From a bacterium (lineage in GTDB: Bacteria; Pseudomonadota; Alphaproteobacteria; Rhizobiales; Aestuariivirgaceae): DNA of 48,857 bases. The notes below the pieces were generated by a model. That model did no database searches. It was not told where the DNA came from and worked only from the letters and a program-made list of their open reading frames with translations. Every line of letters starts with the position of its first letter. The stretch's first letter is position 1. The DNA lies in the NCBI GenBank assembly GCA_022842165.1, contig JALHQC010000026.1:1-48857 (forward strand). Reading direction: 5' to 3'. Below are positions 13,847 to 48,857 of the stretch, one piece after another. Made by a program: the position numbers and the translations under genes.

Positions 13847-13903
13847 CCGTCGTGTATCGGCGGTTTTTGGCAACATCGGCGCCGTTGCGCCGCGTCACTG
13901 ACT

Positions 13904-13938: not shown

Positions 13939-14100
13939 CGGTTACGGTGCCGACAAGTTGCGGCCGGGGAATTAGGTTTTGTTAACCTTTCCCGGCTTAT
14001 CTTAAGCACGAACGTTAACGGTTAGTTGTGCGCGTATCCAGTCCGGGTGCGCAAAACACAAAGGCTCCGCGGCGGAGTCGGGGACCATAGGGGATTCGAG

Positions 14101-32735: not shown

Positions 32736-32873
32736 CAAGGGCTTGATTTCGCTGTTTTAAATAGCCAGATTGCACAACAACACAGTATCGTTTCCGTCAC
32801 TGCCCGATCCTGCATCAGCCTCTATGCCTGGATTTACCGTGCGCGGGCCACCGGTTAGCAGAAAGAACACGTG

Positions 32874-34202
32874 ATGATTCAATGGAGCGATACTTCGACT
32901 GTGCTCGTCGATCACGTCGGTGACTGGCTGATGAAGAGCGCCTTGGCTGGCACCGATGTGTCCGAGATTTTCAGCGGCTTCTGCGAACGGCTCACATCCG
33001 CCGGACTGCCGCTCGTCCGGGTGCACCTGTCGTTTTCCATCCTGCATCCGCTCTATCGCGCGGCCGGCTTCACCTGGCGGCGCGGCAAGGGATCGACGAG
33101 CCAGCAGGTGAGCCATGCCGGGGCCGGCACGTCCGACGCCTTCGCCCGCAGCCCCTACTTTTATCTGCTCAACAACAATCTTGACCACCTGCGCCGCCGC
33201 ATCGATGGCGACGCATCGCCGGAATTTCCGATCCTCGGGGAACTGAAGGCGGAAGGCATCACCGATTACATAGCCTTCGTGCACAAGTTCGAAGTCAACT
33301 CCTCCCAGGGCATGATGGGTTCGTGGTCGACCGACCGTCCCGAAGGTTTCAGCGAGGGCGCCATTGCCGCGCTGCTGCGGCTGCAGAACCAGCTCGCCGT
33401 GGCGATCAAGATGTCGGTCCTCGGCAAGCTCGCCAGCAACATGCTGACCACCTATCTCGGCAGCGAAGCCGGCAGGCGGGTGCTGAGCGGTCAGATCAAG
33501 CGCGGCGACACCGAGACGATCCGGGCGGCGCTGGTCATGGTCGACATGCGAAATTCCACTGCCGTGGCCGACATGCACGGCAGGCAGGTATTCATCGACA
33601 CGCTCAATCTCTTTTTCGACGCCATTGCCGCCTCCTTCCACCGCAATGGCGGCCAGATCCTCAGTTTCATGGGCGACGGCTTCCTGGCCGTCTACCCCTG
33701 CGAACGCAACAAGCAGCAGTCGCAGGCCGCCTGCCGGGCCGCCCTCGCCGCCGTCAAGGCCGGCCTCTCGCGCATGAACGAGCTGAACCAGAAGCGCTTG
33801 GCCGAAGGCTTGTGGGAGATCGACTTCGGCATTGGCCTCCATGTCGGCAACGTCATCTTCGGCAATGTCGGCCTCGCCGACCGCATGACCTTCTCGACCT
33901 TCGGCGCCGCTGTCAACGAGGTGCAGCGTCTCGAATCCCTCACCAAGAAATTCCAGACGAAAGTCATCGGCAGCGACGACTTCGTCGGTTACTGCGGCGG
34001 CAGATGGATGCCGCTCGGCATTGAAAACCTGAAAGGCATCGAACAGCCCGTCAAGATCTTCACGCCGCAGTTCAAGCGCCTGCAGGACCCGGCCACGTCC
34101 CAGCAGAATGGCGCGGCCGAGGATACGCTGTCAGATGCCGAACATCTGATGATGATGCATCGCGCCGCCCGCCAGGGCGCGGAAAAGCAGCCGGTGCAAT
34201 GA
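32874..34202 (+). CDS. Class III adenylate/guanylate cyclase with N-terminal sensor-like region
   Basis: A 442-residue cytosolic protein. The C-terminal cyclase domain (about 215-400) keeps both metal aspartates, Asp-224 (VMVDMRNST) and Asp-268 (FMGDGFLAVY), and the transition-state pair Asn-348/Arg-352 (VNEVQRLE). The position of the base-selecting lysine is Ser-264, so ATP/GTP preference is unclear. Residues 1-200 form a globular region that resembles the N-terminal part of CyaA-type soluble bacterial cyclases (WSDTSTVLVDHVGDWLM ... SSQGMMGSWSTDRPEGFS), perhaps GAF-like. The start at 32874 follows a GAAAGAAC stretch; a GTG one codon upstream is possible. It precedes the lyase gene by 48 bases. 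Confidence 0.9.
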   Translation: MIQWSDTSTVLVDHVGDWLMKSALAGTDVSEIFSGFCERLTSAGLPLVRVHLSFSILHPLYRAAGFTWRRGKGSTSQQVSHAGAGTSDAFARSPYFYLLNNNLDHLRRRIDGDASPEFPILGELKAEGITDYIAFVHKFEVNSSQGMMGSWSTDRPEGFSEGAIAALLRLQNQLAVAIKMSVLGKLASNMLTTYLGSEAGRRVLSGQIKRGDTETIRAALVMVDMRNSTAVADMHGRQVFIDTLNLFFDAIAASFHRNGGQILSFMGDGFLAVYPCERNKQQSQAACRAALAAVKAGLSRMNELNQKRLAEGLWEIDFGIGLHVGNVIFGNVGLADRMTFSTFGAAVNEVQRLESLTKKFQTKVIGSDDFVGYCGGRWMPLGIENLKGIEQPVKIFTPQFKRLQDPATSQQNGAAEDTLSDAEHLMMMHRAARQGAEKQPVQ

Positions 34203-34250: not shown

Positions 34251-35147
34251 ATGGCGGAGCCGGAGATGACTTTCGAGGACGTGCTGGTCGACGGGTTCGA
34301 CGGCGAGGATTTTTCCCCGGCCGGCGGCCTTTATTACAAGACCACCTTCGAGCAGAGCGCAGGCACCGTGGAGTTCCAGAAAGAAGTGTCGCGCGGCCTC
34401 GGCGGAGCGCTCAAGCTCTCGGTCAATCCGCTGAGCGAGGTTCCACCCGGCACCGATTTCAGCGAACGCGCGGAAATCTGGGAACGGCCTCGCCTCAGGG
34501 TGCCCTACGACCGGGGCATCTGGTACGGCTTCGCTGTCAAGTTCGCCGATCCGCTGCCCGAGGACGAGCATCGCTGCCTGATTGCCCAGTGGAAACGTGA
34601 GATCGACCCAGGCCATCCCCTGAACTTCAGCCCGTTTTTCGCGCTTAGATTGAATCGCGGCAAACTGTTTGCAACCGTCGAGACCAATTTTCATCAGCCG
34701 CGGATCGATCATAGGTCCCCCTCCAGCCAACTGGTGCCGGTGTGGCTGCGGCCGGAGACCAATCAGATGCGGGCACTGGTCGCCACTCCATCGGATTGGA
34801 CCGCTGCCGACGGCAAGCTCTTCGATGTCCATTCAAGCGACCTGACGGTGACCAGCCATGGCAACCCGATGCCCGACCCGCGCTCCGGCTGGATCGATTT
34901 CGTCGTCTATACCAAGCCTGGCCCCGATGGCAGCGGCCATATCGAATTGTTTGCCAACGGCAAATGGATCGTCACCGTCAAGGGTCATATCGGCCATAAC
35001 GACTCCGGGCTCGGCCGAAACCAGTATTTCAAGTTCGGGCCTTACCGGGCTGGTGGCCAGTCCGGCACCTGGACGCTCTACTATGATGACTTCCGGCGCT
35101 CGCCGCGCTGCGCCGATGTCATGCGCGGCGTCCCCTGCCCGTTCTGA
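34251..35147 (+). CDS. Heparin lyase I-like polysaccharide lyase
   Basis: A 298-residue protein of the Polysacc_lyase (heparin lyase I-like) family, a concanavalin-like beta jelly roll. Characteristic pieces are RAEIWERPRLRVPYDRGIWYGFAVKF (residues 71-96), LIAQWKREIDPGHP, SGWIDFVVYTKPGPDGSGHIELFANG and the C-terminal GxYRAGGQSGTWTLYYDDFRR. It would cleave an acidic or sulfated glycan by beta-elimination, or only bind one. No signal peptide is visible, unusual for a lyase meant for external polymers. It lies between a cyclase and a transporter operon. Confidence 0.83.
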   Translation: MAEPEMTFEDVLVDGFDGEDFSPAGGLYYKTTFEQSAGTVEFQKEVSRGLGGALKLSVNPLSEVPPGTDFSERAEIWERPRLRVPYDRGIWYGFAVKFADPLPEDEHRCLIAQWKREIDPGHPLNFSPFFALRLNRGKLFATVETNFHQPRIDHRSPSSQLVPVWLRPETNQMRALVATPSDWTAADGKLFDVHSSDLTVTSHGNPMPDPRSGWIDFVVYTKPGPDGSGHIELFANGKWIVTVKGHIGHNDSGLGRNQYFKFGPYRAGGQSGTWTLYYDDFRRSPRCADVMRGVPCPF

Positions 35148-35340: not shown

Positions 35341-37242
35341 ATGACGTCATCCACCGACCTCTTGCGGATCGAAAATCTTCGGGTCCGGATCAAGCTGCAG
35401 TCGGCACATATTGAACCTGTGAAGGGCGCGAGCCTGCGCATCCTGCCAGGCAAGGTGACGGCCCTGGTGGGCGAGTCGGGGTCGGGCAAGTCGATCATCG
35501 CGCAGGCCATCATGGGCATCCTGCCGCCGGTCGCAAGCATTACCGGCGGCCGCATATTGTTCAGCGATCCCCAATCCGGCGAGCCGCCAATCGATCTTGC
35601 CAGCCTCGACAGCCGCAGCGAACGCTACCGGGCGATCCGCGGCCATCGCGCCGCCATGATCTTCCAGGAGCCGATGACGGCACTGTCGCCGCTGCACACG
35701 ATCGGCGACCAGATTGGCGAAACCTTGCGCATTCATTCGGATCTGCCGGCCGCTGAAGTGCGCCGCCGCACCGAGGAGATCATCGAACTGGTCGGGATCC
35801 CCGATCCCGGCCGCGCTTACGACAAATACCCCTTCGAACTGTCGGGAGGCCTCAGGCAGAGGGCGGTGATCGCCATGGCGCTGATCTGCCGTCCGGCACT
35901 GATCGTTGCCGACGAACCGACGACCGCTCTCGACGTCACCATCCAGGCACAAATCCTGCAGCTTTTGGGCGAACTTCAGTCGAAACTCAAGATGGCGATG
36001 TTGCTCATCACCCACGATCTCGGGATCGTCGCCAACATGGCCGACGAGGTCGTGGTGATCTATCACGGCGAAATCGTCGAATCCGGGACGGTGTCCGACA
36101 TCTTCCGCAATCCGCAGCATCCCTATCTGAAAGGCCTGCTGCGGGCGGTGCCGCATTTCGACATGAAGCCGAACGAGCGCCTGAAATCGCTGCGCGACGT
36201 CGAGGTTCACACCGGCGCCCTGATGAACCGGGAGAAGCAGGCAAAGCCGGCGGACGGCGCGGTCATGCTGCGGGCGAGCCATCTCAGCAAGTCGTTCATG
36301 GCCAAGAACGATGCCGGCTGGTTCGGCAAGCGGAGCGGAAGCGGCTTGCGCGCTCTCGACGACGTCAGCCTCGAGATCCGGCAGGGCGAATGCCTCGGCC
36401 TGGTGGGCGAAAGCGGCTGCGGCAAGACCACCTTCAGCAAGATCGTCATGCGCGCCATGCGCCCTGACGGCGGTTCGCTCAGCTTTGACGACGGCACCGG
36501 CCCCATCGACGTTCTCGACGCCGAAGGCAGCGAATTGCACAAGCTGCGGACCAAGATCCAGATGGTGTTCCAGGATCCGTTCTCGTCCCTGTCGCCGCGC
36601 ATGACGGTGAAGAATATCCTGAGCGAACCTCTGGAAATTCACAACATCGGAGATGCCGCGTCCCGGCTGGAAAGGGTCACGGCGCTGATGAACGCCGTAG
36701 GGCTCGATCCGCGATTTCTGAGCCGCTATCCGCACAGTTTTTCCGGCGGGCAGAGGCAGCGCGTCGGCATCGCGCGGGCCTTGGCGCTCGGCCCCGACCT
36801 GCTGATCTGCGACGAGCCGGTGTCGGCGCTCGACGTGTCGGTCCAGGCGCAGATCCTCAATCTGCTGAAGGATCTGCAGGCCCAGCTTGGCCTCACATAT
36901 CTGTTCATTTCCCACAATCTTGCCGTGGTCGACTACATGGCCGACCGCATCGCCGTCATGTGCCGTGGACGGATCGTCGAAATCGCGCCACGGGAAACCC
37001 TGTTCCGGACCCCCGCTCATCCCTATACCCGCACCCTGCTTGCTGCGGTGCCGTTCCCCGATCTCGACCGGCCGCTCGACTACTCGGTTCTGCAGCTCGG
37101 CACCGCCTCCGATCCGCGAAGCTGGCCACGAAGTTTTTCGCGCGGCGAGGAAGACGCGCCTCTGGTACCGGCGAGCCTCGGCGAGGATCATTACGTCCTG
37201 GCCCGGGCGGATGCGAGGGCGGAGGATTTGCGATCTTGGTAA
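35341..37242 (+). CDS. Fused double ATPase of a peptide/oligosaccharide ABC importer (DppD-DppF type)
   Basis: A 633-residue protein with two complete nucleotide-binding domains of the oligopeptide/nickel family. Domain 1: Walker A GESGSGKS (44-51), signature LSGGLRQR (167-174), Walker B LIVADEP (187-193). Domain 2: Walker A GESGCGKTT (356-364), signature FSGGQRQR (467-474), Walker B LLICDEP (487-493). Each is followed by a typical oligopeptide C-terminal segment (NPQHPYLKGLLRAVP, TPAHPYTRTLLAAVP). It powers the permeases encoded downstream. The gene overlaps the solute-binding protein gene by 7 bases. Substrate may be peptide or oligosaccharide. Confidence 0.93.
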   Translation: MTSSTDLLRIENLRVRIKLQSAHIEPVKGASLRILPGKVTALVGESGSGKSIIAQAIMGILPPVASITGGRILFSDPQSGEPPIDLASLDSRSERYRAIRGHRAAMIFQEPMTALSPLHTIGDQIGETLRIHSDLPAAEVRRRTEEIIELVGIPDPGRAYDKYPFELSGGLRQRAVIAMALICRPALIVADEPTTALDVTIQAQILQLLGELQSKLKMAMLLITHDLGIVANMADEVVVIYHGEIVESGTVSDIFRNPQHPYLKGLLRAVPHFDMKPNERLKSLRDVEVHTGALMNREKQAKPADGAVMLRASHLSKSFMAKNDAGWFGKRSGSGLRALDDVSLEIRQGECLGLVGESGCGKTTFSKIVMRAMRPDGGSLSFDDGTGPIDVLDAEGSELHKLRTKIQMVFQDPFSSLSPRMTVKNILSEPLEIHNIGDAASRLERVTALMNAVGLDPRFLSRYPHSFSGGQRQRVGIARALALGPDLLICDEPVSALDVSVQAQILNLLKDLQAQLGLTYLFISHNLAVVDYMADRIAVMCRGRIVEIAPRETLFRTPAHPYTRTLLAAVPFPDLDRPLDYSVLQLGTASDPRSWPRSFSRGEEDAPLVPASLGEDHYVLARADARAEDLRSW

Positions 37243-39137
37243 ACCGCCGCACGGTTCTCGGCTGCCTGGGCTCGCTGCCGCTTGCCTCCGCGGCGCGCAG
37301 CGCAAGCCTCGAGGCGCCCTTCCTCGAGCCCCACATCGCCAGCGGCGAGTTGCCGCCTCTGGCGCAGCGCTTGCCGAAGGTGCCCCGTGTCGTGAACCTC
37401 GCTGCGATGGGCCGCCAGCCCGGCAGCCATGGCGGCGACATGCGCGTCCTCATTGCCGGACAGAAGGACATCCGCCTGATGACCATCAATGGTTACGCGC
37501 GGCTCGTCGGCTTCAACGAAAAACTCGAACTGCAGGCCGACATCCTCGAGCGCTTCGACAATGTCGAGGACCGCGTCTTTACCTTCAGGATCCGCGAAGG
37601 CCACCGATGGTCCGACGGCTCCCTGCTGACGGCGGACGATTTCCGCTACGCCTGGGACGACATGCTGATGGACACCGACGTGTCGCCCCGCGGCCTGTCT
37701 CCCGACATGCTGTCGGACGGCAAGCCGCCGGTCTTCGAAGTTCTCGATGCCCTCACCGTCCGCTACAGCTGGGAACATCCCAATCCGGATTTTCTGCCCC
37801 GGCTCGCCGCGGCCCAGCCTCTCTACCTGGTGTTTCCCGCCGCCTATCTCAGGCAATTCCACAAGAAACATCAGAGCGAGGACAAGCTCGCGGCACTGGT
37901 CGAAGAATTCAGGGTCAAGAACTGGGTGGCGCTGCACACCCGCATGAGCCGCCAGTACCGGCCGGAAAATCCCGATCTCCCCACCCTCGACCCGTGGCGC
38001 AACACCACCAATCCGCCAGCCGAGCAGTTCGTCTTCGAACGCAATCCGTATTTCCACCGTGTCGACGAGCGCGGCCGGCAGCTCCCCTACATCGATCGTT
38101 TCATTCTCAATGTCAGTTCCTCCGCGATCATCCCGGCCAAGACGGGCGCGGGCGACTCCGATCTGCAGGCCACCGGCATCGACTTCAATGACTACGCATT
38201 CCTCAAGGATGCCGAGACGCGCCATCCGATCAAGGTCAGCCTGTGGAAGAAGACGCAAGCCTCGCGCATCGCCCTGTTGCCCAACCTGAATTTCAAGGAC
38301 GACACCTGGCGCGGCCTGTTCCGCGATGTCCGGTTCCGCAGGGCCTTGTCGGTCGCCATCAACCGGCACGAGGTCAACATGGCCATGTTCTTTGGCCTCG
38401 GCACCGAAAGCGGCGACACGCTGATGCCGGAAAGCCCGCTCTACCGGCGCGAATTCGCGGAAGCCTGGTCCAGGTACGACCCTGCCCTCGCCAACGCACT
38501 TCTTGACGAGGTGGGGCTGACGGAACGCGGTTCGGACGGCATCCGTCTGCTGCCCGACGGCGGCCGCGCCGAAATCATCGTCGAAACCGCTGGCGAGAGC
38601 ACGCTCGAAACCGATGTTCTCGAACTGATCGAGGACTACTGGCACAAGATCGGCATCAAGCTGTTTATCCGCACCTCGCAGCGCGACGTCTTCCGCAGCC
38701 GGGCGATCGGCGGCGAGATCATGGTGGCGATCTGGTCCGGCATGGACAACGGCGTCGCCACGGCGGCCATGAACCCCGGCCAGCTGGCGCCAACATCGGA
38801 CGACCGGCTGCAGTGGCCGGTATGGGGCCTCCATAATCAGTCGAACGGTCAGGCAGGAAGCCCGCCGGACATCGTCGAGGCAGCCGAGCTGCTCGATCTC
38901 TACAAGGCCTGGCGCCGCTCGACCGAAACCGCCCAGCGTACCGAGATCTGGACGAAGATGCTGTCGATCTATGCCGATCAGGTGTTCTCGATCGGTCTGA
39001 TCAACGGCACCTTGCAGCCCATCGTCAGGACCGCCAGGCTCGTCAACCTTCCTGAAAACGGACTCTTCGGCTTCGAGCCGACCTGCTATTTCGGCGTCTA
39101 CATGCCCGACACGTTCTGGTTAAGGGGCGAGGCCTGA
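37236..39137 (+). CDS. ABC importer solute-binding protein, SBP_bac_5 family
   Basis: A 633-residue periplasmic binding protein. It starts at a TTG inside the end of the ATPase gene, with GGAGGA nine bases upstream (37221), and runs NRRTVLGCLGSLPLASAARS, a Tat-like or Sec signal peptide. The SBP_bac_5 fold is marked by FTFRIREGHRWSDGSLLTADDFRYAWDDM, RNPYFHRVDERGRQLPYIDR and DVRFRRALSVAINRHEVN. It is longer than the usual ~530 residues, as in members for larger ligands. Its context between glycan-related genes suggests an oligosaccharide, but peptide is equally compatible. Confidence 0.9.
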   Translation: MVNRRTVLGCLGSLPLASAARSASLEAPFLEPHIASGELPPLAQRLPKVPRVVNLAAMGRQPGSHGGDMRVLIAGQKDIRLMTINGYARLVGFNEKLELQADILERFDNVEDRVFTFRIREGHRWSDGSLLTADDFRYAWDDMLMDTDVSPRGLSPDMLSDGKPPVFEVLDALTVRYSWEHPNPDFLPRLAAAQPLYLVFPAAYLRQFHKKHQSEDKLAALVEEFRVKNWVALHTRMSRQYRPENPDLPTLDPWRNTTNPPAEQFVFERNPYFHRVDERGRQLPYIDRFILNVSSSAIIPAKTGAGDSDLQATGIDFNDYAFLKDAETRHPIKVSLWKKTQASRIALLPNLNFKDDTWRGLFRDVRFRRALSVAINRHEVNMAMFFGLGTESGDTLMPESPLYRREFAEAWSRYDPALANALLDEVGLTERGSDGIRLLPDGGRAEIIVETAGESTLETDVLELIEDYWHKIGIKLFIRTSQRDVFRSRAIGGEIMVAIWSGMDNGVATAAMNPGQLAPTSDDRLQWPVWGLHNQSNGQAGSPPDIVEAAELLDLYKAWRRSTETAQRTEIWTKMLSIYADQVFSIGLINGTLQPIVRTARLVNLPENGLFGFEPTCYFGVYMPDTFWLRGEA

Positions 39138-39139
39138 AG

Positions 39140-40138
39140 ATGCTGCGATACATTCTCTGGCGCATCGCCATCATGATCCCGACGCTGCTGATCATTTCAG
39201 CCGTGATCTTCATCATCATCGAACTCCCGCCGGGCGACTATTTCGAGAGCTATATCGCCGAACTCAAGGCCGCGGGCGAAAGCGTCAACCTCGAACAGAT
39301 CGAGGAGTTGCGCGCCCAGTACGGCTTCGACCAGCCCCTGGTTCTCCGCTACGTCTACTGGGTCTTCGGCATGCTCCAGGGTGATTTCGGCTACTCCTTC
39401 GAGTATCAGATCCCGGTCAGCGACGTGGTGGGAGACCGCCTCTGGCTCACCATCCTCGTCTCCTTCGTGACGATCATCTTCACCTGGCTGCTGGCCTTTC
39501 CGATCGGCATCTACTCCGCCACCCATCAATACAGCTGGAGCGATTACGGCCTCACCTTTCTGGGGCTGCTGGGCCTTGCCATTCCGAATTTCATGCTGGC
39601 CCTGATCCTGATGTATTTTGCCAACATCTGGTTTGGCGTGTCCATCGGCCATCTTATGGACCGTGAGTTCCTGAACGAACCGATGAGCCTGGCGAAGGCC
39701 CAGTCGATACTGTCGCACCTGTGGATTCCGGTGATCATCATCGGCACGGCGGGCACCGCCGGCATGATCCGCAGGCTGCGTGCCAATCTCCTCGATGAAT
39801 TGCGCAAGCAATATGTGACCACCGCGCTCGCCAAGGGCGTGCCGCCGCTCCGGGCGCTCGTGAAGTATCCGCTGCGCATGTCGCTGAATTTCTTCATATC
39901 CGACATCGGCTCGATCCTGCCGGCCATCATCTCGGGCGCCGAAATCACGGCGATCGTGCTGTCCCTCGAAACCACGGGTCCGATGCTGATCCGCGCGCTC
40001 CAAAGCCAGGATATGTATCTGGCCGGGTCGTTCCTCATGTTCCTGGCCTTTCTGACGGTCATCGGCGTGCTGATCTCGGATATCGCGCTGGCCATCCTCG
40101 ATCCCCGCATCCGCCTACAGGGCAAGAGCCAGAAATGA
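39140..40138 (+). CDS. ABC importer permease, DppB type
   Basis: A 332-residue inner-membrane permease with six membrane helices and the DppB N-terminal domain (MLRYILWRIAIMIPTLLIISAVIF, FDQPLVLRYVYWVFGMLQGDFGYSF). The BPD signature with the EAA loop lies in RRLRANLLDELRKQYVTTALAKGVPPLRALVKYPLR (about 210-245). It follows the binding-protein gene by 2 bases and its stop overlaps the next permease start (ATGA). It forms the channel with the DppC-type partner. Confidence 0.92.
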   Translation: MLRYILWRIAIMIPTLLIISAVIFIIIELPPGDYFESYIAELKAAGESVNLEQIEELRAQYGFDQPLVLRYVYWVFGMLQGDFGYSFEYQIPVSDVVGDRLWLTILVSFVTIIFTWLLAFPIGIYSATHQYSWSDYGLTFLGLLGLAIPNFMLALILMYFANIWFGVSIGHLMDREFLNEPMSLAKAQSILSHLWIPVIIIGTAGTAGMIRRLRANLLDELRKQYVTTALAKGVPPLRALVKYPLRMSLNFFISDIGSILPAIISGAEITAIVLSLETTGPMLIRALQSQDMYLAGSFLMFLAFLTVIGVLISDIALAILDPRIRLQGKSQK

Positions 40139-41310
40139 CATCTCCCCTTCCCGCTCCGGGCGAACCGCTGCCGCACTTTGTTTCTGCGGCGCCGTTCGAC
40201 CCCTACACGATCGAGAAGATGTCGGAGGCCCAGTCGAAGGTCTACCTGGCCTCGCAGTGGCAGCTCATCTGGTGGAAGTTCAAGCGCCACAGGGTCGCCC
40301 TCTGGTGCGGCATCTTCATCGCATTGGTCTATTTCACGGCACTCATCAGCGAGTTTCTTGCGCCGTACAACCTGCACACCCGCAACGTCGAATTCATTCA
40401 TTCGCCGCCGCAGATGATCCACCTGTTTCATGACGGCGCGTTCGTCGGCCCCTTCGTCTACGGGCGCGATGCCACGCTCAACATGACCACCATGAAGCGC
40501 GAGTACGCCGACAACCCCGCGAAGATCATGCCGCTTCGCTTCTTCTGCCGCGGCGACAGCTACGAATTCTGGGGCCTCTGGCCGGCCGATGTGCATCTGT
40601 TCTGCCCTGCCGAAGGCGGCCAGGTCTTTCTCCTCGGCACCGACAGGCTCGGCCGCGATCTGCTGTCGCGCATCATTTATGGCACGCGGATCTCGATGAC
40701 CATCGGCCTCATCGGCATCACCGTCAGCTTTATCCTCGGCATCATCATCGGCGGCATCGCGGGCTACCGCGGCGGCTGGATCGATCTCGGCGTCCAGCGC
40801 CTGATCGAAGTGCTGCAGTCGATCCCGAGCATACCGCTGTGGATGGCTTTGGCCGCCATCATGCCGGTGTCATGGAGTCCGATCGTCATCTATTTCGGGA
40901 TGACCATCATCCTCGGCCTGCTGGACTGGACAGGGCTTGCCCGTGCCGTCCGGTCCAAGCTGCTGTCGCTCCGCGAGGAGGAATATGTTCTTGCCGCGCA
41001 ACTCATGGGGGCGTCGACCAGCCGCATCATCGGCCGCCATCTCGTTCCGGGCTTCATGTCGCATCTGATCGCCACGGCGACGATCGCCATCCCCGGCATG
41101 ATCCTGGGCGAAACGGCGTTGAGCTTCCTCGGCCTCGGCCTGCGCGCGCCCATCACCAGCTGGGGCATACTTCTCACCGAAGCCAAGAACGTCAATGTCG
41201 TGGCGATCTATCCCTGGCTTCTGTTTCCCGTTGTTCCGGTCATCTTGGTGATCATCGCCTTCAACTTCTTCGGAGACGGTCTGCGCGATGCGGCCGACCC
41301 CTACAATTGA
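40135..41310 (+). CDS. ABC importer permease, DppC type
   Basis: A 391-residue permease, longer than usual (about 300) because of a soluble region between the first helix and the core (residues 75-165, including RDATLNMTTMKREYADNP and RGDSYEFWGLWPADVHLFCPA). This insertion occurs in DppC relatives of a subgroup. Core: GTDRLGRDLLSRIIYGTRISM, GGWIDLGVQRLIEVLQSIPSIPLWMAL and the EAA loop RSKLLSLREEEYVLAAQLMGAS. Coupled to the DppB gene by a 4-base overlap and probably the last gene of the importer operon. Confidence 0.92.
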   Translation: MTSPLPAPGEPLPHFVSAAPFDPYTIEKMSEAQSKVYLASQWQLIWWKFKRHRVALWCGIFIALVYFTALISEFLAPYNLHTRNVEFIHSPPQMIHLFHDGAFVGPFVYGRDATLNMTTMKREYADNPAKIMPLRFFCRGDSYEFWGLWPADVHLFCPAEGGQVFLLGTDRLGRDLLSRIIYGTRISMTIGLIGITVSFILGIIIGGIAGYRGGWIDLGVQRLIEVLQSIPSIPLWMALAAIMPVSWSPIVIYFGMTIILGLLDWTGLARAVRSKLLSLREEEYVLAAQLMGASTSRIIGRHLVPGFMSHLIATATIAIPGMILGETALSFLGLGLRAPITSWGILLTEAKNVNVVAIYPWLLFPVVPVILVIIAFNFFGDGLRDAADPYN

Positions 41311-41392
41311 AAGCGGTCACGCGTGTGCGGTACATCGCAGGAACCGGGCAGCAACCGCCCCGTCCCGCCATATCCAGGGAAAGGCTGAAGTG

Positions 41393-42601
41393 ATGATGCG
41401 GCGTTACGAGAATGCCCGGATCCTGATGTACAGCCACGATACCTTCGGGCTTGGCCATCTCCGCCGCTGCCGCGCGATCGCCCATGCGCTGGTGCAGGAT
41501 TACCGCGGCCTCAGCGTGCTGATCATTTCGGGCTCCTCGATTGCCGGCGCTTTCGACTACCGCGCCCGCGTCGACTTCGTGAAGATCCCCAGCGTCATCA
41601 AGCTGCGGAACGGGGAATACACCTCCCTTGCCCGCCATATCGATCTGCAGGAAACCCTGCTGATGCGCCAGTCGATCATCAGGCACACGGCGGAATCTTT
41701 CCAGCCCGACATATTCATCGTCGACAAGGAACCGCTCGGCCTTCACGCCGAGGTCGAGGATACCCTGGCCTACTTGAAGACCAAGGGCACGATCCTCATC
41801 CTTGGCCTGCGCGACGTGATGGACGCGCCGCACCTGCTGGACGCGGAGTGGAAGCGCCGCGACGTGCTGGGCAAGATCGGCAGGCTGTATGACGACATCT
41901 GGGTCTATGGCCCTGCCGATTTCTACAATCCGCTCACCGATCTCGACGTTCCCGACCAGGTCGCCTCGAAGCTCAATTACGTAGGCTTCTTGCACCGCGA
42001 ACTTTCAAACAGCGAGAACCTGAGCCACGTACCGGAGGGCGACTACATGCTGGTCACGCCCGGCGGCGGCGGCGATGGTGCCGAACTCATTCACAACGTT
42101 CTCCACGCCTATCAGCAGGATCCCGAGCTCACATATAAATCCGTCATCGTGCTCGGTCCCTACATGCCGATCCGCCAGCGCCGCAAGCTCATCAAGAAAG
42201 GGCAGAAAATTCCTTCGGTGCAGATCATCGAGTTCGACAATCACATGGAAGATCTGGTGGCGGGCGCCAAGGCCGTGGTGGCGATGGCTGGCTACAACAC
42301 GTTCTGCGAAATCCTGTCGTTCGACAAGCCGGCCCTCGTCGTGCCGCGCGTCGAACCGCGTCAGGAACAGTTGATCCGGGCGCGGCGCGGCGCCGAATTC
42401 GGCCTCGTCGACATGCTGCTGCCCGATGAGGCCGCCGACCCCCTGCGCCTCGCGGCAGCACTGAAAGCCCTGCCCGCCCGTCTGCGGCCTTCGCAGTGCA
42501 GCCCCGGGCTCAGGCTTGAAGGCCTGACGCGCATTTCGGAGATCACCGGTTCATGGCTTGACAAGCGCACCCGACAGCATCTGGCAGTCGTCGAGAATTA
42601 G
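41393..42601 (+). CDS. Glycosyltransferase, GT28/MurG-like (first copy)
   Basis: A 402-residue cytosolic GT-B fold protein. The N-terminal MYSHDTFGLGHLRRCRAIAHAL (12-33) has the GHL motif of MurG-type enzymes; the nucleotide-sugar domain has GDYMLVTPGGGGDG and MAGYNTFCEILSFDKPALVVPR with a trailing EQLIRA, as in UDP-sugar transferases. It starts at the first of two ATGs behind AAAGG at 41384; codons from 41288 are not supported. The gap to the importer is 82 bases. It is related in plan to the gene at 43857. Acceptor and sugar are unknown. Confidence 0.85.
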   Translation: MMRRYENARILMYSHDTFGLGHLRRCRAIAHALVQDYRGLSVLIISGSSIAGAFDYRARVDFVKIPSVIKLRNGEYTSLARHIDLQETLLMRQSIIRHTAESFQPDIFIVDKEPLGLHAEVEDTLAYLKTKGTILILGLRDVMDAPHLLDAEWKRRDVLGKIGRLYDDIWVYGPADFYNPLTDLDVPDQVASKLNYVGFLHRELSNSENLSHVPEGDYMLVTPGGGGDGAELIHNVLHAYQQDPELTYKSVIVLGPYMPIRQRRKLIKKGQKIPSVQIIEFDNHMEDLVAGAKAVVAMAGYNTFCEILSFDKPALVVPRVEPRQEQLIRARRGAEFGLVDMLLPDEAADPLRLAAALKALPARLRPSQCSPGLRLEGLTRISEITGSWLDKRTRQHLAVVEN

Positions 42602-42621: not shown

Positions 42622-43860
42622 ATGACAAAGACCATCATCGTTCTCAAGGGCTATCCCCGGCTTTCCGAAACTTTCATTGCCCAGGAACTGCTGGGGCTCG
42701 AGCAAGCCGGAATGAACCTGGAGATTGTCTCCATGCGGCAGCCGACAGACACCCGCCGCCACCCCGTGCATGACGAGATCAAGGCACCGGTCCGCTATCT
42801 GCCGGAATACCTCCACGACGACTGGCCGCGCGTGATCCGTGGGTTCTTCACCTGCTTGAAACATCCCGGCTTCTTCAAGGTGCTCCTGCCCTTCTGGCGT
42901 GACCTGCGCCGCGACTGGACCCGCCATCGCGCAAGGCGGCTGGGCCAGGCCATGGTGCTGGCCGCCGAATTGCCGTCCGATGCCGGGTGGATTCACGCGC
43001 ACTTCATTCACACGCCGGCCTCGGTTGCAGCCTATGCCAGCGTGATCAGCGGAATCCCATGGTCCTGCTCGGCCCATGCCAAGGATATCTGGACCTCGCC
43101 CGGCTGGGAATTGAAAGACAAGCTATCAACCGCGCGTGGCGTCGTCACCTGCACCGCGTCGGGCTTTGCGCATCTGCGCGGCCTTGCCGCCGATCAACGC
43201 AGGGTCCACCTCAGCTATCATGGGCTCGACCTCGACAGGTTCTCGCCCTTCACGTCGCAGCGTTCCAGCCGTCGGGGCGACGATCCCGCCGATCCCCTGA
43301 TCGTACTGAGCGTTGGCCGGGCGGTGCCAAAGAAGGGTTTCGACGTGCTGCTCCATGCGCTGGCGCTGCTCAAGAACGACTTCTCGTTTCGTTTGGTCCA
43401 CGTGGGAGGTGGCGAAATTCTGGCTGACCTGCAGGCCCTTGCGGCCAAGCTTGACCTCGCAGGCATGATAGACTGGAAAGGCGCGCTCACCCAGGGCGAG
43501 GTGCTTGAGCTCTATCGCCAAGCGGATGTTTTCGCACTCGCTTGCCGCGTGACGGACGATGGCGACCGCGATGGATTGCCAAACGTGCTGGTTGAAGCCT
43601 GCAGCCAGGGGCTCGTCTGTGTCTCGACTGCAATTTCCGGCGTGCCCGAACTGTTGAGTGATGGCGAGAATGGCAAGCTGGTCGAGCCGGAAAATCCCGC
43701 CGCCCTTGCCGTGGCATTGTCCGAACTCATGCGCGATCCCTCCCTTCGCCAGAGGCTTGGCGCGGCGGCAGAACGGCGGGTGCGCCAGCACTTCGACTAT
43801 CACACCAGCGTCAGCCAGCTAGACGCGCTGTTCCGTTCCGGCTGGCGCTCCGAAACATGA
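42622..43860 (+). CDS. Glycosyltransferase, GT4 family
   Basis: A 412-residue GT-B glycosyltransferase. The N-terminus MTKTIIVLKGYPRLSETFIAQEL is typical of GT4 enzymes of exopolysaccharide and colanic-acid type; the C-terminal domain has LSVGRAVPKKGFDVLLHAL, the sugar-nucleotide site DGLPNVLVEACSQGLVCVSTAISGVPELL and the usual E-X7-E region. It is 20 bases after the first GT28-like gene, and its stop overlaps the next start (ATGA at 43857). It probably adds one sugar during glycan or glycolipid assembly on the cytoplasmic side. Confidence 0.9.
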   Translation: MTKTIIVLKGYPRLSETFIAQELLGLEQAGMNLEIVSMRQPTDTRRHPVHDEIKAPVRYLPEYLHDDWPRVIRGFFTCLKHPGFFKVLLPFWRDLRRDWTRHRARRLGQAMVLAAELPSDAGWIHAHFIHTPASVAAYASVISGIPWSCSAHAKDIWTSPGWELKDKLSTARGVVTCTASGFAHLRGLAADQRRVHLSYHGLDLDRFSPFTSQRSSRRGDDPADPLIVLSVGRAVPKKGFDVLLHALALLKNDFSFRLVHVGGGEILADLQALAAKLDLAGMIDWKGALTQGEVLELYRQADVFALACRVTDDGDRDGLPNVLVEACSQGLVCVSTAISGVPELLSDGENGKLVEPENPAALAVALSELMRDPSLRQRLGAAAERRVRQHFDYHTSVSQLDALFRSGWRSET

Positions 43861-44990
43861 AAGCCCGCCGCGTCCTCCTCTACGTCCAGCATCTTCTGGG
43901 CATCGGCCATCTGGCGCGAACCAATCACATTGCCATGGCCTTGAAAGCCGCCGGCTTCGGCGTGACCATCGTCATGGGCGGAACGCCAGTGGCTGGTTTT
44001 CCAAATGCCGGCATCGATGTCGTGCAGCTGCCGCCGGTAAAGGCCGGAGGCGATGGCTTCGCAAGCCTTGTGGATACCAAGGGCAAGGCCATCGATGAAA
44101 ACTTCAGGATGGAACGGACCCGTCAGCTCTTGTCGGCCTTTCAGCAAATCGCTCCGGACATTCTGATGATCGAAGCCTTCCCCTTCGGGCGCCGCGCCAT
44201 GCGCTTCGAACTCATTCCATTGCTTGAACACGCTGCCACCATGAGGCAGCGTCCGCTCATCGTGTGTTCCATCAGGGACATCCTGCAGGAAAACCTGAAA
44301 CCCGGCCGCGCAGAGGAAACCGTCGAAACGATCGAGCGCTATTTCGATCTGGTGCTCGTGCATGGCGATCCCGCCTTTGCCGGCTTATCCGCGAGCTTCG
44401 CGCTGGCCGGCGCCATCGCCAAGGAGATCCGCCACACCGGCCTCGTGGCCGGGCCGCCGCCCGAGCCATCGCCCGAGCAATTCGACATCGTCATATCGGC
44501 AGGCGGCGGTGCCGCGGGCCTGCCCCTGATCCGCGCTGCGGCAGCTATGTCCGGGAACATGAAGGCCGGCCTTCGCTGCTGCCTGATCACCGGACCAAAT
44601 CTGCAACACCCCGAGGTCGAGGCCCTGTTGACGCAGCCGGCAGATGGCCTCAAGGTCTTCTCCTTCCGGCCGGATTTTCCGGCACTGCTGGCGGCAGCGA
44701 AACTGTCCATTTCGCAGGCGGGGTACAACACGGTCTGCGATATCTTGCAGGCCCGCTGCCGCTCTCTCCTCATTCCCTTTGCAGCAGGCGGTGAAACCGA
44801 ACAATCGGTCAGGGCGGCAAGACTGGCGCAACTTGGGCTCGCCGCCGTTCTCTCCGAAAATGACGTCAGTCCGCAAACGCTGGAACGTGCCGCATCCCAG
44901 CTGCTCGCCGGTCCTCCGCCGCCCCCCACCACGCTGGACCTTGAAGGCGCGCGCCATACGGCAGAGATTCTGCGTGCCAGGCTACTTTAG
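43857..44990 (+). CDS. Glycosyltransferase, GT28/MurG-like (second copy)
   Basis: A 377-residue GT-B protein with the GIGHLARTNHIAMALKAAGF segment (15-34) and ISQAGYNTVCDILQARCRSLLIPFAAGGETEQSVRA in the C-terminal domain, the same scheme as the gene at 41393 but clearly diverged. The central VISAGGGAAGLPLI marks the hinge between domains. It overlaps the GT4 stop by 4 bases, so the three glycosyltransferases form one unit. Its stop is directly followed by the stop of a convergent gene (TAGCTAG), with no terminator seen. Confidence 0.85.
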   Translation: MKARRVLLYVQHLLGIGHLARTNHIAMALKAAGFGVTIVMGGTPVAGFPNAGIDVVQLPPVKAGGDGFASLVDTKGKAIDENFRMERTRQLLSAFQQIAPDILMIEAFPFGRRAMRFELIPLLEHAATMRQRPLIVCSIRDILQENLKPGRAEETVETIERYFDLVLVHGDPAFAGLSASFALAGAIAKEIRHTGLVAGPPPEPSPEQFDIVISAGGGAAGLPLIRAAAAMSGNMKAGLRCCLITGPNLQHPEVEALLTQPADGLKVFSFRPDFPALLAAAKLSISQAGYNTVCDILQARCRSLLIPFAAGGETEQSVRAARLAQLGLAAVLSENDVSPQTLERAASQLLAGPPPPPTTLDLEGARHTAEILRARLL

Positions 44991-45674
44991 CTAGGTTCGG
45001 CCAATCAGCATGAAGCGCGTGTATTTCTTCTGCGGCAGTTGCCCGGCATAGAGCACCTCGGAAAGCTTCGCATCCGCTGCAAAGGCTTCGAGAGTCGGCA
45101 TCGCGTTCACATGCGTGGGTTCCGCAAAGTAATCATTGGATTGCAGCAGCACCCTGCAGCCCTGCGGCAAAAGCGAGAGCCAGGCCCCGATGTCCGGAAT
45201 ATGTTCACAGCTCGTGTTGATGACGAGGTCAGGCCGGGCCGCCCTGTAGTCGAGACCGTACATGTCCGCCGTGATCGCCTGGAAGGCGCTGGAATGCGCC
45301 GCAGTCAGCGTTCGTGCTATGGCCTCGACACCGGGGTCGATGTCGAAGCTCTCGATCATTCCGATCTCGAAGCGCGGGTCGTCGAACAGCATGCCCGCCA
45401 GCACGCCATACCAGCCGCCCATGAGCCAGATGCGGGTATAGCGCCCGCCCAATGTTTCATGAAGCTGGTCCCGCGCCCACATCTTGCAGGCCACCTGCTT
45501 GTGGTTGAAGGCCGTTCCAATTTCTGCATCCGGATGTTTCGCAATGACCCGCGCAACAGCGGCGGCCAAGCTGTTGCCGGTATAGGCGGCAAGGCCCCGG
45601 ACAAGGTCATGGGCCAGCTCCCGCGGATCATCCGCCGGGCGTTGCGTCGGCGTCGACGTGGTAGCGTTCACCAT
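44991..45674 (-). CDS. Class I SAM-dependent methyltransferase-like protein
   Basis: A 227-residue protein with a Rossmann methyltransferase core: a glycine loop in RIWLMGGWYGVLAGMLF (about 81-97), the acidic strand ESFDIDPGVEAIA, and the motif-IV-like PDLVINTSCEHIPD (about 149-162). The loop GGWYG is an unusual form of the GxGxG motif. The C-terminal EVLYAGQLPQKKYTRFMLIGR is a typical last strand pair. Substrate unknown. It is convergent with the glycosyltransferase operon and divergent from another methyltransferase-like gene, with under 50 bases between starts. Confidence 0.78.
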   Translation of the reverse strand: MVNATTSTPTQRPADDPRELAHDLVRGLAAYTGNSLAAAVARVIAKHPDAEIGTAFNHKQVACKMWARDQLHETLGGRYTRIWLMGGWYGVLAGMLFDDPRFEIGMIESFDIDPGVEAIARTLTAAHSSAFQAITADMYGLDYRAARPDLVINTSCEHIPDIGAWLSLLPQGCRVLLQSNDYFAEPTHVNAMPTLEAFAADAKLSEVLYAGQLPQKKYTRFMLIGRT

Positions 45675-45722: not shown

Positions 45723-46310
45723 TTGCAAGGCTACGAAACGGGTCCGGCAGGCGCGGCAGAGCCACCGGCATGGCAGGGACTGGAACATTTGTCCGGTCCC
45801 GCCGCTGAAGTGCGGCAAGTTCTGGCGGCGCACTTCCTGCGCGGTTGCCCGCACGTGCTCGAAATCGGCGGCCACCTGCGGCCGGTCACGTCCTACCTCA
45901 CGCACCAGCCGCAATCGGTGCTGTCGGTCGACCCCAAGATCGTGCCGTATGAAGCTGAAGAACTGAACGGTTTCCCCTGCCACGTCCGCCATGTCGGCAG
46001 CAAGTTCCAGCACGTCGATTACACCTATGCCCCCGAAAGCTATGGCCTCGTCATGCTGGGGCTGTCGCTCAAACCCTATGGCAGCCGTAGCGCCACCGGC
46101 GAACTGCTGTTGTCTCTGGTCCGCAACGCCCGCGTCGTCATCCTCGACTTTGCCGTCGAACTCGGCCGCGCCGCGACGCAATCGGCTGAACTGCTGTCGC
46201 AGCCGGGGCTTTCCATCCATTGTAGCCTCGAACTTCAACTCAACGATACAATGATCGGCCACTCACCATACGCGGCACGGCGCTTCATCGTGTTGCGGCC
46301 AGCGGCTTAA
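45723..46310 (+). CDS. Small SAM-methyltransferase-like protein
   Basis: About 195 residues with a Rossmann-like core: PHVLEIGGHLRPVTSYLT for the SAM loop (EIGG) and SVDPKIVPYEAEEL for the acidic strand, then a YAPESYGLVMLGLSLKPYG block, and a C-terminal pair of strands. It may have lost catalysis, as the glycine loop is incomplete. Starts are all TTG: I use 45723, which has AAGGGG nine bases upstream; 45714 and 45690 are alternatives. The frame continuing to 45039 is antisense to the neighbour. It ends 15 bases before the exporter-like gene. Confidence 0.72.
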   Translation: MQGYETGPAGAAEPPAWQGLEHLSGPAAEVRQVLAAHFLRGCPHVLEIGGHLRPVTSYLTHQPQSVLSVDPKIVPYEAEELNGFPCHVRHVGSKFQHVDYTYAPESYGLVMLGLSLKPYGSRSATGELLLSLVRNARVVILDFAVELGRAATQSAELLSQPGLSIHCSLELQLNDTMIGHSPYAARRFIVLRPAA

Positions 46311-46325
46311 GGGGCGCCGCAACCG

Positions 46326-48857
46326 ATGAACAAATCCCTTGCGCGCTACATCTGGTCCAACACGCGCCGGCAGCAGATATGGATTCTGATTATCGTTCTG
46401 GTGTCGATGTACACCTATTTCCTCTCGCTCGACCTGCCGAAGCTCATCGTCAACGGACCGATCCAGGGTACGGGGTTCGAGGCGCCCGGCGTCACGCAGA
46501 CCTACATGGTGCTCAATTTCGACCTGCCCTACTGGGGCAAGGTCGAGCTGTTTGAAGGTGTCAATCTCGATCGCTTCGGTTCGCTTATATATCTCAGCCT
46601 GCTCTTCCTCCTGCTGGTGATCGTCAACGGCACCTTCAAATTCTATATCAACACCTACAAGGGCCGGCTTGGCGAGCGCATGCTGCGGCGCCTGCGTTTC
46701 GACCTTGTTGACAGGATACTGCGTTTCCCGCCGTCCCAGTTCAAACGCGTCAAGCCTGCCGAACTGTCAACGATGGTCAAGGACGAGGTCGAACCCCTGG
46801 GCGGATTCATCGGCGATGCCTTTGTCCAGCCAGTGTTGCTCGGCGGCCAGGCGGCAACATCGCTGTTCTTCATCGTCGTGCAGAACCGCTGGCTTGGCCT
46901 CATCGCCGCGGCGATCGTGGCCTTGCAGCTCGTCATCATCCCCAGAATGCGGCGGCGGCTGCTCGTCCTCGGGCGCGAACGGCAGCTGACGGCACGCGAA
47001 CTTTCAGGCCGGATCAGCGAGATATCCGAAGGCATCTCCACCATCCGCAACCACGATACTTCGAATTACGAGCGCGCCGATATCTCGGCGAGGCTCGGCC
47101 GTATCTTCAAGATCCGCTACGATCTCTATCAGTGGAAGTTCATGGTGAAGTTCATCAACAACTTCCTCGCACAGGTTACGCCGTTCCTGTTTTACCTCGT
47201 CGGCGGCTATCTCGTCATCGTCGGCTCGCTCGACGTCGGTCAGCTGGTCGCGGTGATTGCGGCCTACAAGGATCTGCCCGCCCCGCTCAAGGATCTCATC
47301 GACTGGGACCAGGCACGTCAGGACGTCCAGATCAAATACGCGCAGGTCTACGAGCAGTTCGACGTCAAGGACATGATCGACAGCCGCATCCACGCAGTCG
47401 AACACAATCCCGCGCCGCCGCTCGGACATTCGCTTCATGTCACCAATCTGACAGTGACCGACGACGGTGGCGCGCAGGTTCTGGACCGCGCGACACTCGA
47501 GATCAAGCCGGGCGAACGGGTTGCGATCATCGGCAGCGGCGGCGAGGCGTTGCTCGAAGCCATGGCGCGGATCGTCTGGCCGGACGGCGGGCGTGTTCTG
47601 CTCGGCTCGCAGGATATCCGCGAACTTCCCGAATCGGTCATCGGCCGCCGCATGGCCTATGCCGGCTCCGACGCTTACCTGTTCCAGGGCACGCTGGGCG
47701 ACAATCTGTTCTACGGGTTGAAGCACGCGCCTCTGCAGCCCAAGACATATGAAGGCACGATGGCCACCCGGCGGAAGTGGGAACTGAGCGAGGCACTGAA
47801 GTCAGGCAATGTCGATTTCGACATCAATGCCGATTGGGTTGACTATACGTCCGCGGGCGCGTCTGGCCCTCACGACCTGTCGAACTCCCTGATGCCCATT
47901 CTCGATGCCCTGATGCTTTCTGGCGATCTTCTTGAACTGGGGTTGAGGTCGCGCGTCGATCCGATCAAGCATTCCCGGCTTGCCGGCCTCACCGTGCAGG
48001 TCCGCCAGGCATTCCGCGAACGTCTGCAGTCTGAAAATCTTGATCACGTCGTCGTGCCCTTCAAGGCGGGCGCGTACAATCCCGAAGCGACAGTGAGCGA
48101 GAACCTGCTCTTCGGCGCGGCGACCGGGCCGATGCTGAACAACGAGGCGCTCTGCGGCAATGCCCATTTCCGCGCAGCCCTGGCCGAAACCAAAACCGTG
48201 GACCTCTTCTACAAGATGGGTCTCGAGATCGCCGAAAACGTCATCGAACTGTTTCGCGACTTGCCGCCCGACCATCCGTTTTTCCACGATCTCACCTTCA
48301 TGTCCTCAGAACAGCTTCCCCAGTATCAGGCCCTGCTCAAAAAGATCGAGGGCAAGCCCGCCGCAGAAGTGAACGAACAGGACCTGTCGAAGATCATCGC
48401 ACTGACCTTCACCTACATCGAATCCCGGCACCGCTTTGGCCTGCTCGACGACGAGACGAGGCGGCGCATCGTCGAGGTCCGCGAAAGATTCTTCGCCAAT
48501 CTTCCTGCCGAACTCAAGGGAAGCATCGAGCTTTACGATCCGGAACGCTTCATTGCTGCCGCCAGCCTGAACGACAACATCCTGCTCGGCCGCATCGCGC
48601 ACCAGTATTCCGATGAGATCGAGCACATCCGGGCCATTCTCCACGACCTTCTCGACAAGCAGGGCCTGCGCAACGACGTTATCGACGTCGGCCTCTCCTT
48701 CAACGTTGGTGTCGGCGGCCGCCGCCTCACCGCAAGCCAACGCCAGAAGGTCAGTTTCGCAAGGGCGCTGTTGAAGCGGCCCGAATATCTGCTCGTCAAC
48801 CGGCCGCTTTCCGCGTTGGACCAGCAGGCCCAGATGAGGATCATCATGAACCTGATG
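46326..48857 (+). CDS. ABC exporter-like protein with degenerate, expanded nucleotide-binding domain (partial)
   Basis: The frame is open from the ATG to the window end (844 codons). Residues 1-325 are an exporter-type membrane domain with helices near 17-35, 86-104, 166-205 and 282-312. Residues 368-844 are a nucleotide-binding domain with eroded motifs: at the Walker A place GERVAIIGSGGEALL (396-410) lacks the lysine; the Q-loop is YAGSDAYLFQGTLGDN; the signature is LTASQ (801-805) instead of LSGGQ; Walker B is YLLVNRPLSALD (821-832) with Asn and Arg for the Asp and Glu. Between Q-loop and signature lie about 330 extra residues with two more ENLLFG/DNILLG segments (591-597, 750-755). It may not hydrolyse ATP. 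Confidence 0.85.
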   Translation, partial: MNKSLARYIWSNTRRQQIWILIIVLVSMYTYFLSLDLPKLIVNGPIQGTGFEAPGVTQTYMVLNFDLPYWGKVELFEGVNLDRFGSLIYLSLLFLLLVIVNGTFKFYINTYKGRLGERMLRRLRFDLVDRILRFPPSQFKRVKPAELSTMVKDEVEPLGGFIGDAFVQPVLLGGQAATSLFFIVVQNRWLGLIAAAIVALQLVIIPRMRRRLLVLGRERQLTARELSGRISEISEGISTIRNHDTSNYERADISARLGRIFKIRYDLYQWKFMVKFINNFLAQVTPFLFYLVGGYLVIVGSLDVGQLVAVIAAYKDLPAPLKDLIDWDQARQDVQIKYAQVYEQFDVKDMIDSRIHAVEHNPAPPLGHSLHVTNLTVTDDGGAQVLDRATLEIKPGERVAIIGSGGEALLEAMARIVWPDGGRVLLGSQDIRELPESVIGRRMAYAGSDAYLFQGTLGDNLFYGLKHAPLQPKTYEGTMATRRKWELSEALKSGNVDFDINADWVDYTSAGASGPHDLSNSLMPILDALMLSGDLLELGLRSRVDPIKHSRLAGLTVQVRQAFRERLQSENLDHVVVPFKAGAYNPEATVSENLLFGAATGPMLNNEALCGNAHFRAALAETKTVDLFYKMGLEIAENVIELFRDLPPDHPFFHDLTFMSSEQLPQYQALLKKIEGKPAAEVNEQDLSKIIALTFTYIESRHRFGLLDDETRRRIVEVRERFFANLPAELKGSIELYDPERFIAAASLNDNILLGRIAHQYSDEIEHIRAILHDLLDKQGLRNDVIDVGLSFNVGVGGRRLTASQRQKVSFARALLKRPEYLLVNRPLSALDQQAQMRIIMNLM

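Follow-up and report, generated by a model that had tools for sequence, protein, structure and literature searches.

The stretch of DNA considered here (the window, 48,857 nucleotides) is an entire contig, C26, of the 4.3 Mb genome of an alphaproteobacterium of the Aestuariivirgaceae. Its last gene (46326–48857, forward strand) encodes a protein that derives from ATP-binding cassette (ABC) exporters, carries a large insert in its nucleotide-binding domain (NBD) and lacks the catalytic residues of an ABC ATPase. The frame begins with ATG and runs off the contig; as the window is the whole contig, the 3′ end is open, and 844 amino acids are encoded here. Two Pfam families are matched by the product, ABC_membrane (PF00664; 73.5 bits, cut-off 28, E = 3e-20) and ABC_tran (PF00005; 34.6 bits, cut-off 25, E = 3.4e-8), and both were found in 21 of 21 aligned family members (E up to 0.1). 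The transmembrane domain (TMD; residues 1–345, 46326–47360, forward strand), which by sequence has the type IV exporter fold (PF00664 match at residues 87–311), and an NBD by descent place the protein in the ABC transporter superfamily. Its best NCBIfam match is MsbA (TIGR02203) at 140 bits, far under the 602-bit cut-off of an equivalog, and the missing last residues of the window protein explain little of this gap. In two plasmid records, the homologous gene is annotated as an ABC transporter ATP-binding protein.

Contig C28 of the same genome probably holds the missing 3′ end. The last 229 bases of the window recur at the end of that contig (L004) with 7 differences (a 97% match), and past the overlap follow about 57 more residues in frame, a 153-residue protein with a cyclic nucleoside monophosphate (cNMP)-binding domain, an inverted deacetylase-like gene and a GT4-type gene. 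This gene order is found on a single contig in L036, the nearest relative (69% identical), and it is because overlap and gene order agree that the join appears likely. The 7 differences are unusual for a clean assembly and perhaps reflect a mixture of strains. On pSymB of Sinorhizobium meliloti 1021 (L116, about 11944–14710), the homologous gene is split over two frames; it is unsplit, giving a one-piece match, in S. meliloti strain 2011 and many others.

The Enlarged Nucleotide-Binding Domain

The NBD motifs on which the original prediction was built are all present: IIGSGGEALL at residue 401, LFQGTLGDN at 452, SLNDNILLG at 747, LTASQ at 801, ARALLKRPEYLL at 812, LVNRP at 823 and SALD at 829, as well as ATVSENLLFG, which starts at 588 instead of 589. 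From the Q-loop-equivalent residue to the signature, the protein spans 353 residues, compared with 56 in the 14 canonical exporters measured. The large insertion described earlier is therefore there, with an extra length of about 295–300 residues instead of 330. It can be divided into a unit U1 (residues 466–598, 47721–48119, forward strand), with ATVSENLLFG near its end, and a unit U2 (residues 599–757, 48120–48596, forward strand), with SLNDNILLG near its end; the latter, the third Q-loop-like segment, continues into the true second half of the domain, so that the exact register of the insert is a convention. The second half (48597–48857, forward strand) holds the signature (LTASQ), the Walker B position (LVNRP) and the D-loop (SALD), and residues 738–844 match a canonical NBD profile at E = 1.4e-21.

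Profile comparisons, whose E-values refer to single comparisons and were controlled with 30 column shuffles and with reversed profiles, relate these units to each other. U1 matches U2 at E = 1.5e-14 (5e-15 in a larger alignment, with a score of 88.2 against 20.4 for the best shuffle), the first Q-loop segment (Q1) matches the ends of both units at about 1e-5 each, and the region that precedes the signature in the true second half (U3) is matched by the helical parts of these units at 1.7e-5 and 4.6e-5. The true profile scored above all 30 shuffles in 8 of 8, partly overlapping, comparisons. The earlier suspicion that parts of the domain are repeated is borne out in this sense, with the reservation that two reversed controls also exceed the shuffles. 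Compared directly with the canonical NBD profile, the insert gives weak matches (E = 1.3e-4, 3.7e-3 and 0.53; U1 alone 4.3e-3). Because U1 matches U2, Q1 matches both units, and both units match U3, the simplest reading would be a tandem triplication of the ABC-alpha segment, i.e., the part between Q-loop and signature. In known exporters, this helical subdomain faces the coupling helices. A search of the insert against sequences of the Protein Data Bank returned no match at E up to 10, and the window's insert matched no Pfam family. Six Pfam families that each matched the insert of one of 21 members (best E = 0.023) were treated as chance.

Erosion of the Catalytic Motifs

The motifs were scored in an alignment of 158 family members, i.e., 89 of the window type (the window, its set of 80 relative loci and further close relatives; closely related and not thinned) and 69 others. 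The window-type clade consists mostly of Rhizobium, Mesorhizobium and Sinorhizobium loci. In the window, the Walker A position (IIGSGGEALL, residues 401–410, 47526–47555, forward strand) has no lysine, and the P-loop falls three residues short of that in the relatives compared. Among the window-type proteins, the Walker A lysine, the serine or threonine next to it, the Q-loop glutamine and the Walker B aspartate and glutamate are each found in 0 of 89, and the H-loop histidine in 0 of 88, the window's own H-loop falling beyond the contig. The lysine position is taken by alanine or glycine, and Walker B reads asparagine followed by arginine or glutamine, in 89 of 89. What is kept is the D-loop aspartate (89/89) and the final glutamine of the signature (88/89); the serine of the signature occurs in 2 of 89 and its two glycines in 36 and 47. 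None of the features that define a functional ABC ATPase, namely a Walker A of the form GxxGxGK[S/T], the Walker B aspartate with the catalytic glutamate, and the Q-loop glutamine with the H-loop histidine, was found. The motif losses first noticed in a single sequence are thus real and common to the window-type relatives.

The remaining members are less uniform. The lysine is kept in 28 of 68 (26 have arginine), the adjacent serine or threonine and the Q-loop glutamine in 10 of 68 each, the Walker B aspartate in 21 and the glutamate in 24 of 69, the H-loop histidine in 15 of 68, and the D-loop aspartate in 51 of 67. One protein with the same insert (L139/L190) retains GSGK, LDE and the H-loop histidine, L190 scoring for K, D, E and H; L162–L164 and L197, also with the same insert, retain GKS and the Walker B DE, with H-loop and signature lost in L197 and its kin. 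All seven scored features occur together in 0 of 158 members; the top four keep five, and 13 of the 69 others keep none. The original prediction had named homologues with the same insert and standard motifs as the case that would reduce the present gene to a mutated copy. This case is encountered by half, as some relatives do keep GKS and DE, but none exceeds five of the seven features.

These retained residues bear on the possibility that the protein is still an ATP-driven exporter, in which other groups, or the insert, stand in for the missing lysine and acids. The lysine, glutamate and histidine kept outside the window-type set, the GKS and DE of L197, and the widely conserved D-loop aspartate in both sets would fit such an exporter. 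However, the invariant replacement of the lysine and of both Walker B acids in 89 of 89 window-type proteins, together with the shortened P-loop of the window, makes ATP-driven transport by the window-type protein highly unlikely.

A tree was built from a set thinned to 69 rows below 72% identity, with motif and insert columns removed and with L178, L186 and L236, judged incomplete, left out. The insert-bearing proteins group together against 8 canonical exporters, and the window's lysine-free clade comprises 14 rows with a Shimodaira–Hasegawa-like approximate likelihood ratio (SH-aLRT) support of 100, obtained by a quick method with no bootstrap. The position of the root is uncertain because long branches, those of L170–L172 and of the canonical exporters, come together there. 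The state at the Walker A lysine position requires 18 changes on this tree, which argues that erosion was repeated, and the catalytic residues kept by other insert-bearing members argue that it is derived within the insert-bearing family. Judged from alignment and tree, the erosion is derived and repeated, and not a fault of the window's copy; judged by its residues, the protein descends from ABC exporters and, in the window-type clade, is not a functional ABC ATPase. Genomes G391, G214 and G082 of family f49 contain one to three strongly diverged copies each (L207–L210, L230, L231); in all six copies examined, the cNMP domain is fused and the motifs are very poor.

Selection and Conservation

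The gene is under purifying constraint throughout: the median ratio of nonsynonymous to synonymous substitution rates (dN/dS; 686–692 pairs of 86–95% identity) is 0.144 for the TMD, 0.110 and 0.126 for the two parts of the NBD, and 0.153 for the insert, with single pairs of the short NBD parts reaching 1.2 and 1.1. The original prediction had deduced from the uninterrupted frame that the gene is under selection and no decaying pseudogene; the conclusion holds on these medians, while an open frame alone is no proof of it. The medians also bear on the suspicion that chance mutations or a faulty assembly produced the window's copy. The position of the gene at a contig end and the imperfect contig overlap (97%) could nourish this suspicion, but the same architecture in L036 and the other 79 loci and median dN/dS values of 0.11–0.15 leave it virtually no chance; it is refuted by the relatives.

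The order of conservation within the protein is unusual, indeed inverted, with the TMD above the NBD. Among 3916 window-type pairs, the median identity is 0.83 in the TMD and 0.60 in the NBD core, the TMD being higher in 3691 pairs, and residues 85–345 are the most conserved part compared. The same direction is seen in members that keep the lysine (0.58 vs. 0.42, 378 pairs). In 92 orthologue-like pairs of canonical exporters, drawn from 17 proteins that are mostly of one family and not independent, and picked by a TMD identity above 0.35, which slightly favors the TMD, the values are 0.67 for the TMD and 0.68 for the NBD, with the TMD higher in 40. A stronger contrast that had been drawn from eight heterogeneous canonical exporters (TMD 0.22, NBD 0.52) was replaced by these near-equal pairs.

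If the exporter fold were a non-transporting membrane scaffold, which merely organizes glycosyltransferases and the cNMP-binding protein, the loss of catalytic residues, the large conserved cytoplasmic insert and the glycosyltransferase genes next door would be readily understood. It is the TMD, however, and not the cytoplasmic part that is most conserved, hinting at a substrate path, and the glycosyltransferases are not always linked. A pure scaffold is hence regarded as rather unlikely.

A Predicted cNMP-Binding Partner and a Linked Cyclase Gene

Neither a cNMP-binding partner nor a cyclase or a glycan gene cluster had figured in the original prediction. Gene neighborhoods were counted in the flanks of the 80 window-type loci and of 60 diverse loci, the latter hand-picked for variety, with some sharing one genome, such that their counts do not represent a random sample. 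By tblastn, all 80 window-type loci and 57 of the 60 diverse loci have a homologue of the cNMP gene (137 of 140 in total), the exceptions being L203, L226 and L228. In 13 loci it is joined to the ABC protein as a C-terminal fusion, and in 87 it forms a separate open reading frame (ORF) within 1.5 kb downstream; in 37 loci, mechanically called ORFs overlap the ABC frame, and 3 loci are without it. The gene matches PF00027 at 6.9e-20, and the glycine, glutamate and arginine of the phosphate-binding cassette are present in 101, 96 and 101 of 101 copies (100 loci plus the window genome's own copy). Against TIGR03896, the match (E = 6.9e-11, 42.1 bits) stays below the cut-off of 161.05. At 153 residues, the protein seems too short to include the helix-turn-helix of Crp.

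A partner of a different kind would be expected if the ABC protein were one half of a heterodimer and supplied the degenerate site to an unlinked, ATPase-competent half-transporter, as in TM287/288 and TmrAB. Heterodimers with one degenerate site are common according to a review (PMC7756269), and the window's own genome has other exporter-like genes (13 matches, including the ABC gene itself and the C28 fragment). On the other hand, the flanks revealed a second exporter half at none of the 80 window-type loci and at 1 of the 60 diverse loci, so that the earlier proposal of a partner of another ATPase finds no support nearby; moreover, the protein has lost Walker A, Q-loop, Walker B and H-loop alike, and its signature, which the partner's site would need, is altered. 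A heterodimer is therefore considered doubtful.

The second conserved component is a predicted class III adenylate/guanylate cyclase (32871–34202, forward strand), which is assigned to this family by PF00211 (E = 3.2e-9, 37.1 bits, cut-off 21.9) and has aspartate, asparagine and arginine at what appear to be the corresponding positions of cyclase motifs. Within the flanking sequence covered, 40 of the 80 window-type loci carry a cyclase gene, whose typical distance from the ABC gene is 6.5 kb in the downstream direction. The other 40 genomes have one strong orthologue each (57–71%), 38 of them at 10.0–12.2 kb upstream of the ABC gene on what, by their coordinates, is the same contig. The cyclase is accordingly linked in 78 of 80 loci, and L078 and L107 do not fit. 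The two genes also occur together across genomes: in a sample of the class, the cyclase was found in 115 of 131 genomes with the ABC gene and in 14 of 254 genomes without it (both genes, 115; ABC gene alone, 16; cyclase alone, 14; neither, 240), and among relatives in 10 of 11 and 2 of 50, respectively. The cyclase shares a block with a gene for a DUF3095 protein (30493–31656, reverse strand; PF11294, 8.8e-128), and in G361 a gap of 37 bases separates a cyclase homologue from a DUF3095 gene. As a general partner, DUF3095 was rejected, as it occurs in only 20 of 131 genomes.

The Surface-Glycan Gene Cluster

Between cyclase and ABC gene, the window contains a cluster of genes that, as predicted from their families, would build, trim and perhaps re-import a surface glycan. 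A polysaccharide lyase (34251–35147, forward strand; PF14099, 9.1e-31) is followed by an oligopeptide-type ABC importer (35341–41310, forward strand), which is composed of an ATPase (35341–37242), a binding protein (about 37245–39137) and two permeases (39140–40138 and 40135–41310); the order cyclase, lyase, importer also occurs on S. meliloti pSymB and on a Phyllobacterium plasmid. The importer has a double-domain ATPase and, lying inside the cluster, could, as a guess, recover oligosaccharide or peptide fragments.

Three glycosyltransferase genes follow on the forward strand: GT_A (41288–42601, start uncertain; Glyco_tran_28_C), GT_B (42622–43860; Glycos_transf_1) and GT_C (43857–44990; Glyco_tran_28_C). 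Homologues are present in 76, 77 and 77 of the 80 window-type loci and in 33, 33 and 34 of the 60 diverse loci, respectively, where the three genes mostly form a divergent block together with a GT4-type gene and a deacetylase-like gene. Next to them is a methyltransferase-like gene (44991–45674, reverse strand), which has no Pfam match and a homologue in 46 of 80 loci; the S. meliloti gene in this position is annotated as a class I S-adenosylmethionine-dependent methyltransferase. A short frame between this gene and the ABC gene (45783–46310) has no Pfam match either and a homologue in 20 of 80 relatives. Apart from the ABC, cNMP and glycosyltransferase genes, other clusters of mechanically called ORFs recur in 5–19 of the 60 diverse loci, as counted by a method whose own yield was no more than 50 loci for the ABC cluster and 18 for the cNMP cluster.

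In S. meliloti, SMb20813, possibly the present gene, has been named an msbA homologue (PMC10945364), and mutations in SMb20804/SMb20805, which may or may not be linked to the present cluster, affect KPS (PMC5539429).

Distribution

A query with the insert alone matched 131 of 385 sampled genomes of the class (at 1e-5). In a sample of the phylum (398 genomes), 31 genomes matched and all 31 belong to the same class, the share of the 398 that lies outside the class not being given. Within the window's genus, a full-length match was found in 2 of 37 genomes, and therefore the gene seems to come and go. On plasmids, 262 records matched at 1e-60, mostly from Rhizobium (144) and Sinorhizobium (80).

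A Possible Mechanism

We give even odds to the reading that the window encodes an ABC-exporter-derived pseudo-ATPase, which acts within a surface-glycan cluster and is run by a dedicated cyclic-nucleotide circuit, control and transport being deduced from gene content and residues. The starting point would have been a half-transporter of the MsbA/PglK-like type, whose NBD turned into a pseudo-ATPase. A tandem triplication of the stretch between Q-loop and signature would have arisen in an alphaproteobacterial ancestor; the catalytic residues would then have been lost stepwise, with the loss complete in the window-type clade, while the TMD stayed under stronger constraint. Two copies of the present protein might pair in the inner membrane, and this homodimer would pass or flip a glycan intermediate (probably a lipid-linked one) provided by the neighboring glycosyltransferases; its opening would be set by a cyclic nucleotide instead of ATP hydrolysis. 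The linked class III cyclase would make this nucleotide, and the adjacent cNMP protein, which is C-terminally fused in some relatives, would bind it and dock on the enlarged NBD. The cyclic nucleotide would thereby have taken over the role of the gating ligand, with the TMD still carrying substrate, and energy might possibly come from a gradient or from polymerization. In its fullest form, an ABC exporter with a swapped control input, in which ATP is replaced (fully in the window-type clade) by cyclic-nucleotide signaling, the triplicated ABC-alpha segment serves as adaptor and the protein functions as an ATP-free, ligand-gated glycan flippase or channel, the proposal is clearly more tentative and should be taken as one possibility.

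Several observations weigh against this reading. Two reversed controls exceed the shuffles. When U1 stripped of its Q segment is compared with reversed U3, the score is 20.2, between the best shuffle at 12.5 and the true order at 28.4; for Q1 and reversed U2 it is 17.0, between 14.5 and 30.0. The weaker repeat matches (scores of 24–30) are therefore less secure than the comparison with shuffles would imply. Outside the window-type set, some members have the lysine (28/68) or the glutamate (24/69), and ATP use may persist in part of the family. The glycosyltransferases were not found in 26–27 of the 60 diverse flanks, some of which are ended by contig ends, and a glycan substrate may not be universal across the family. 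Of the 60 diverse loci, only 6 have a cyclase homologue in their flanks, with a weak match in one case, and the co-occurrence of cyclase and ABC gene in the class sample (Fisher p = 3e-63) is uncorrected for kinship and genome size, while the cyclase search at 1e-30 may count paralogues. Finally, the ligand is taken to be cyclic AMP or cyclic GMP, an identity that is assumed.

ATPase activity is the defining feature of ABC transporters. The present family spans the range from five of seven catalytic features to none, by which the question of how an exporter fold works without ATP becomes testable. It also points to a cyclic-nucleotide pathway composed of cyclase, cNMP protein and pseudo-transporter at the envelope of rhizobia and other alphaproteobacteria. 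If the proposal of a swapped control input is true, an ABC-derived transporter of this kind is present in roughly one in three of the alphaproteobacterial genomes sampled.

Comparison With Known Systems

Among the matches listed in full-text literature, which covers few subscription journals, no description of the present family was found. Two of its elements are known from elsewhere: degenerate sites in heterodimeric exporters (PMC7756269) and the cNMP accessory family TIGR03896. Heterodimeric exporters such as TM287/288, TmrAB, TAP and BmrCD resemble the window protein in having a degenerate ATP site in an exporter NBD, but they keep an active second site (PMC7756269), whereas here all scored motif groups are lost and no partner lies in the flanks. 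Exporters of the MsbA/PglK type (TIGR02203, NF050066) are alike in the TMD and in the NBD skeleton, and the glycan context would fit a PglK-like flipping activity; unlike them, the window protein has about 295 extra residues and no catalytic motifs. In NHLP bacteriocin-type export, an exporter likewise stands beside a protein with a cNMP domain (TIGR03896). The ABC protein falls outside these families, however, with 108.5 of 853.3 bits for TIGR03796 and 93.3 of 709.4 bits for TIGR03797, and here it is glycan genes and a cyclase that adjoin, and the ATPase motifs are dead.

The use to which the fold might be put finds a likeness in CFTR (ABCC7) and SUR (ABCC8/9), ABC exporter folds that have been turned into a gated channel and a regulator, respectively. 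These are eukaryotic ABCC proteins that still bind ATP, and we know of no triplicated segment in them. As in CFTR and SUR, an exporter fold would have been put to gated or regulatory use in the present family; in contrast to them, the window-type protein would serve this use without the residues of an ATPase.

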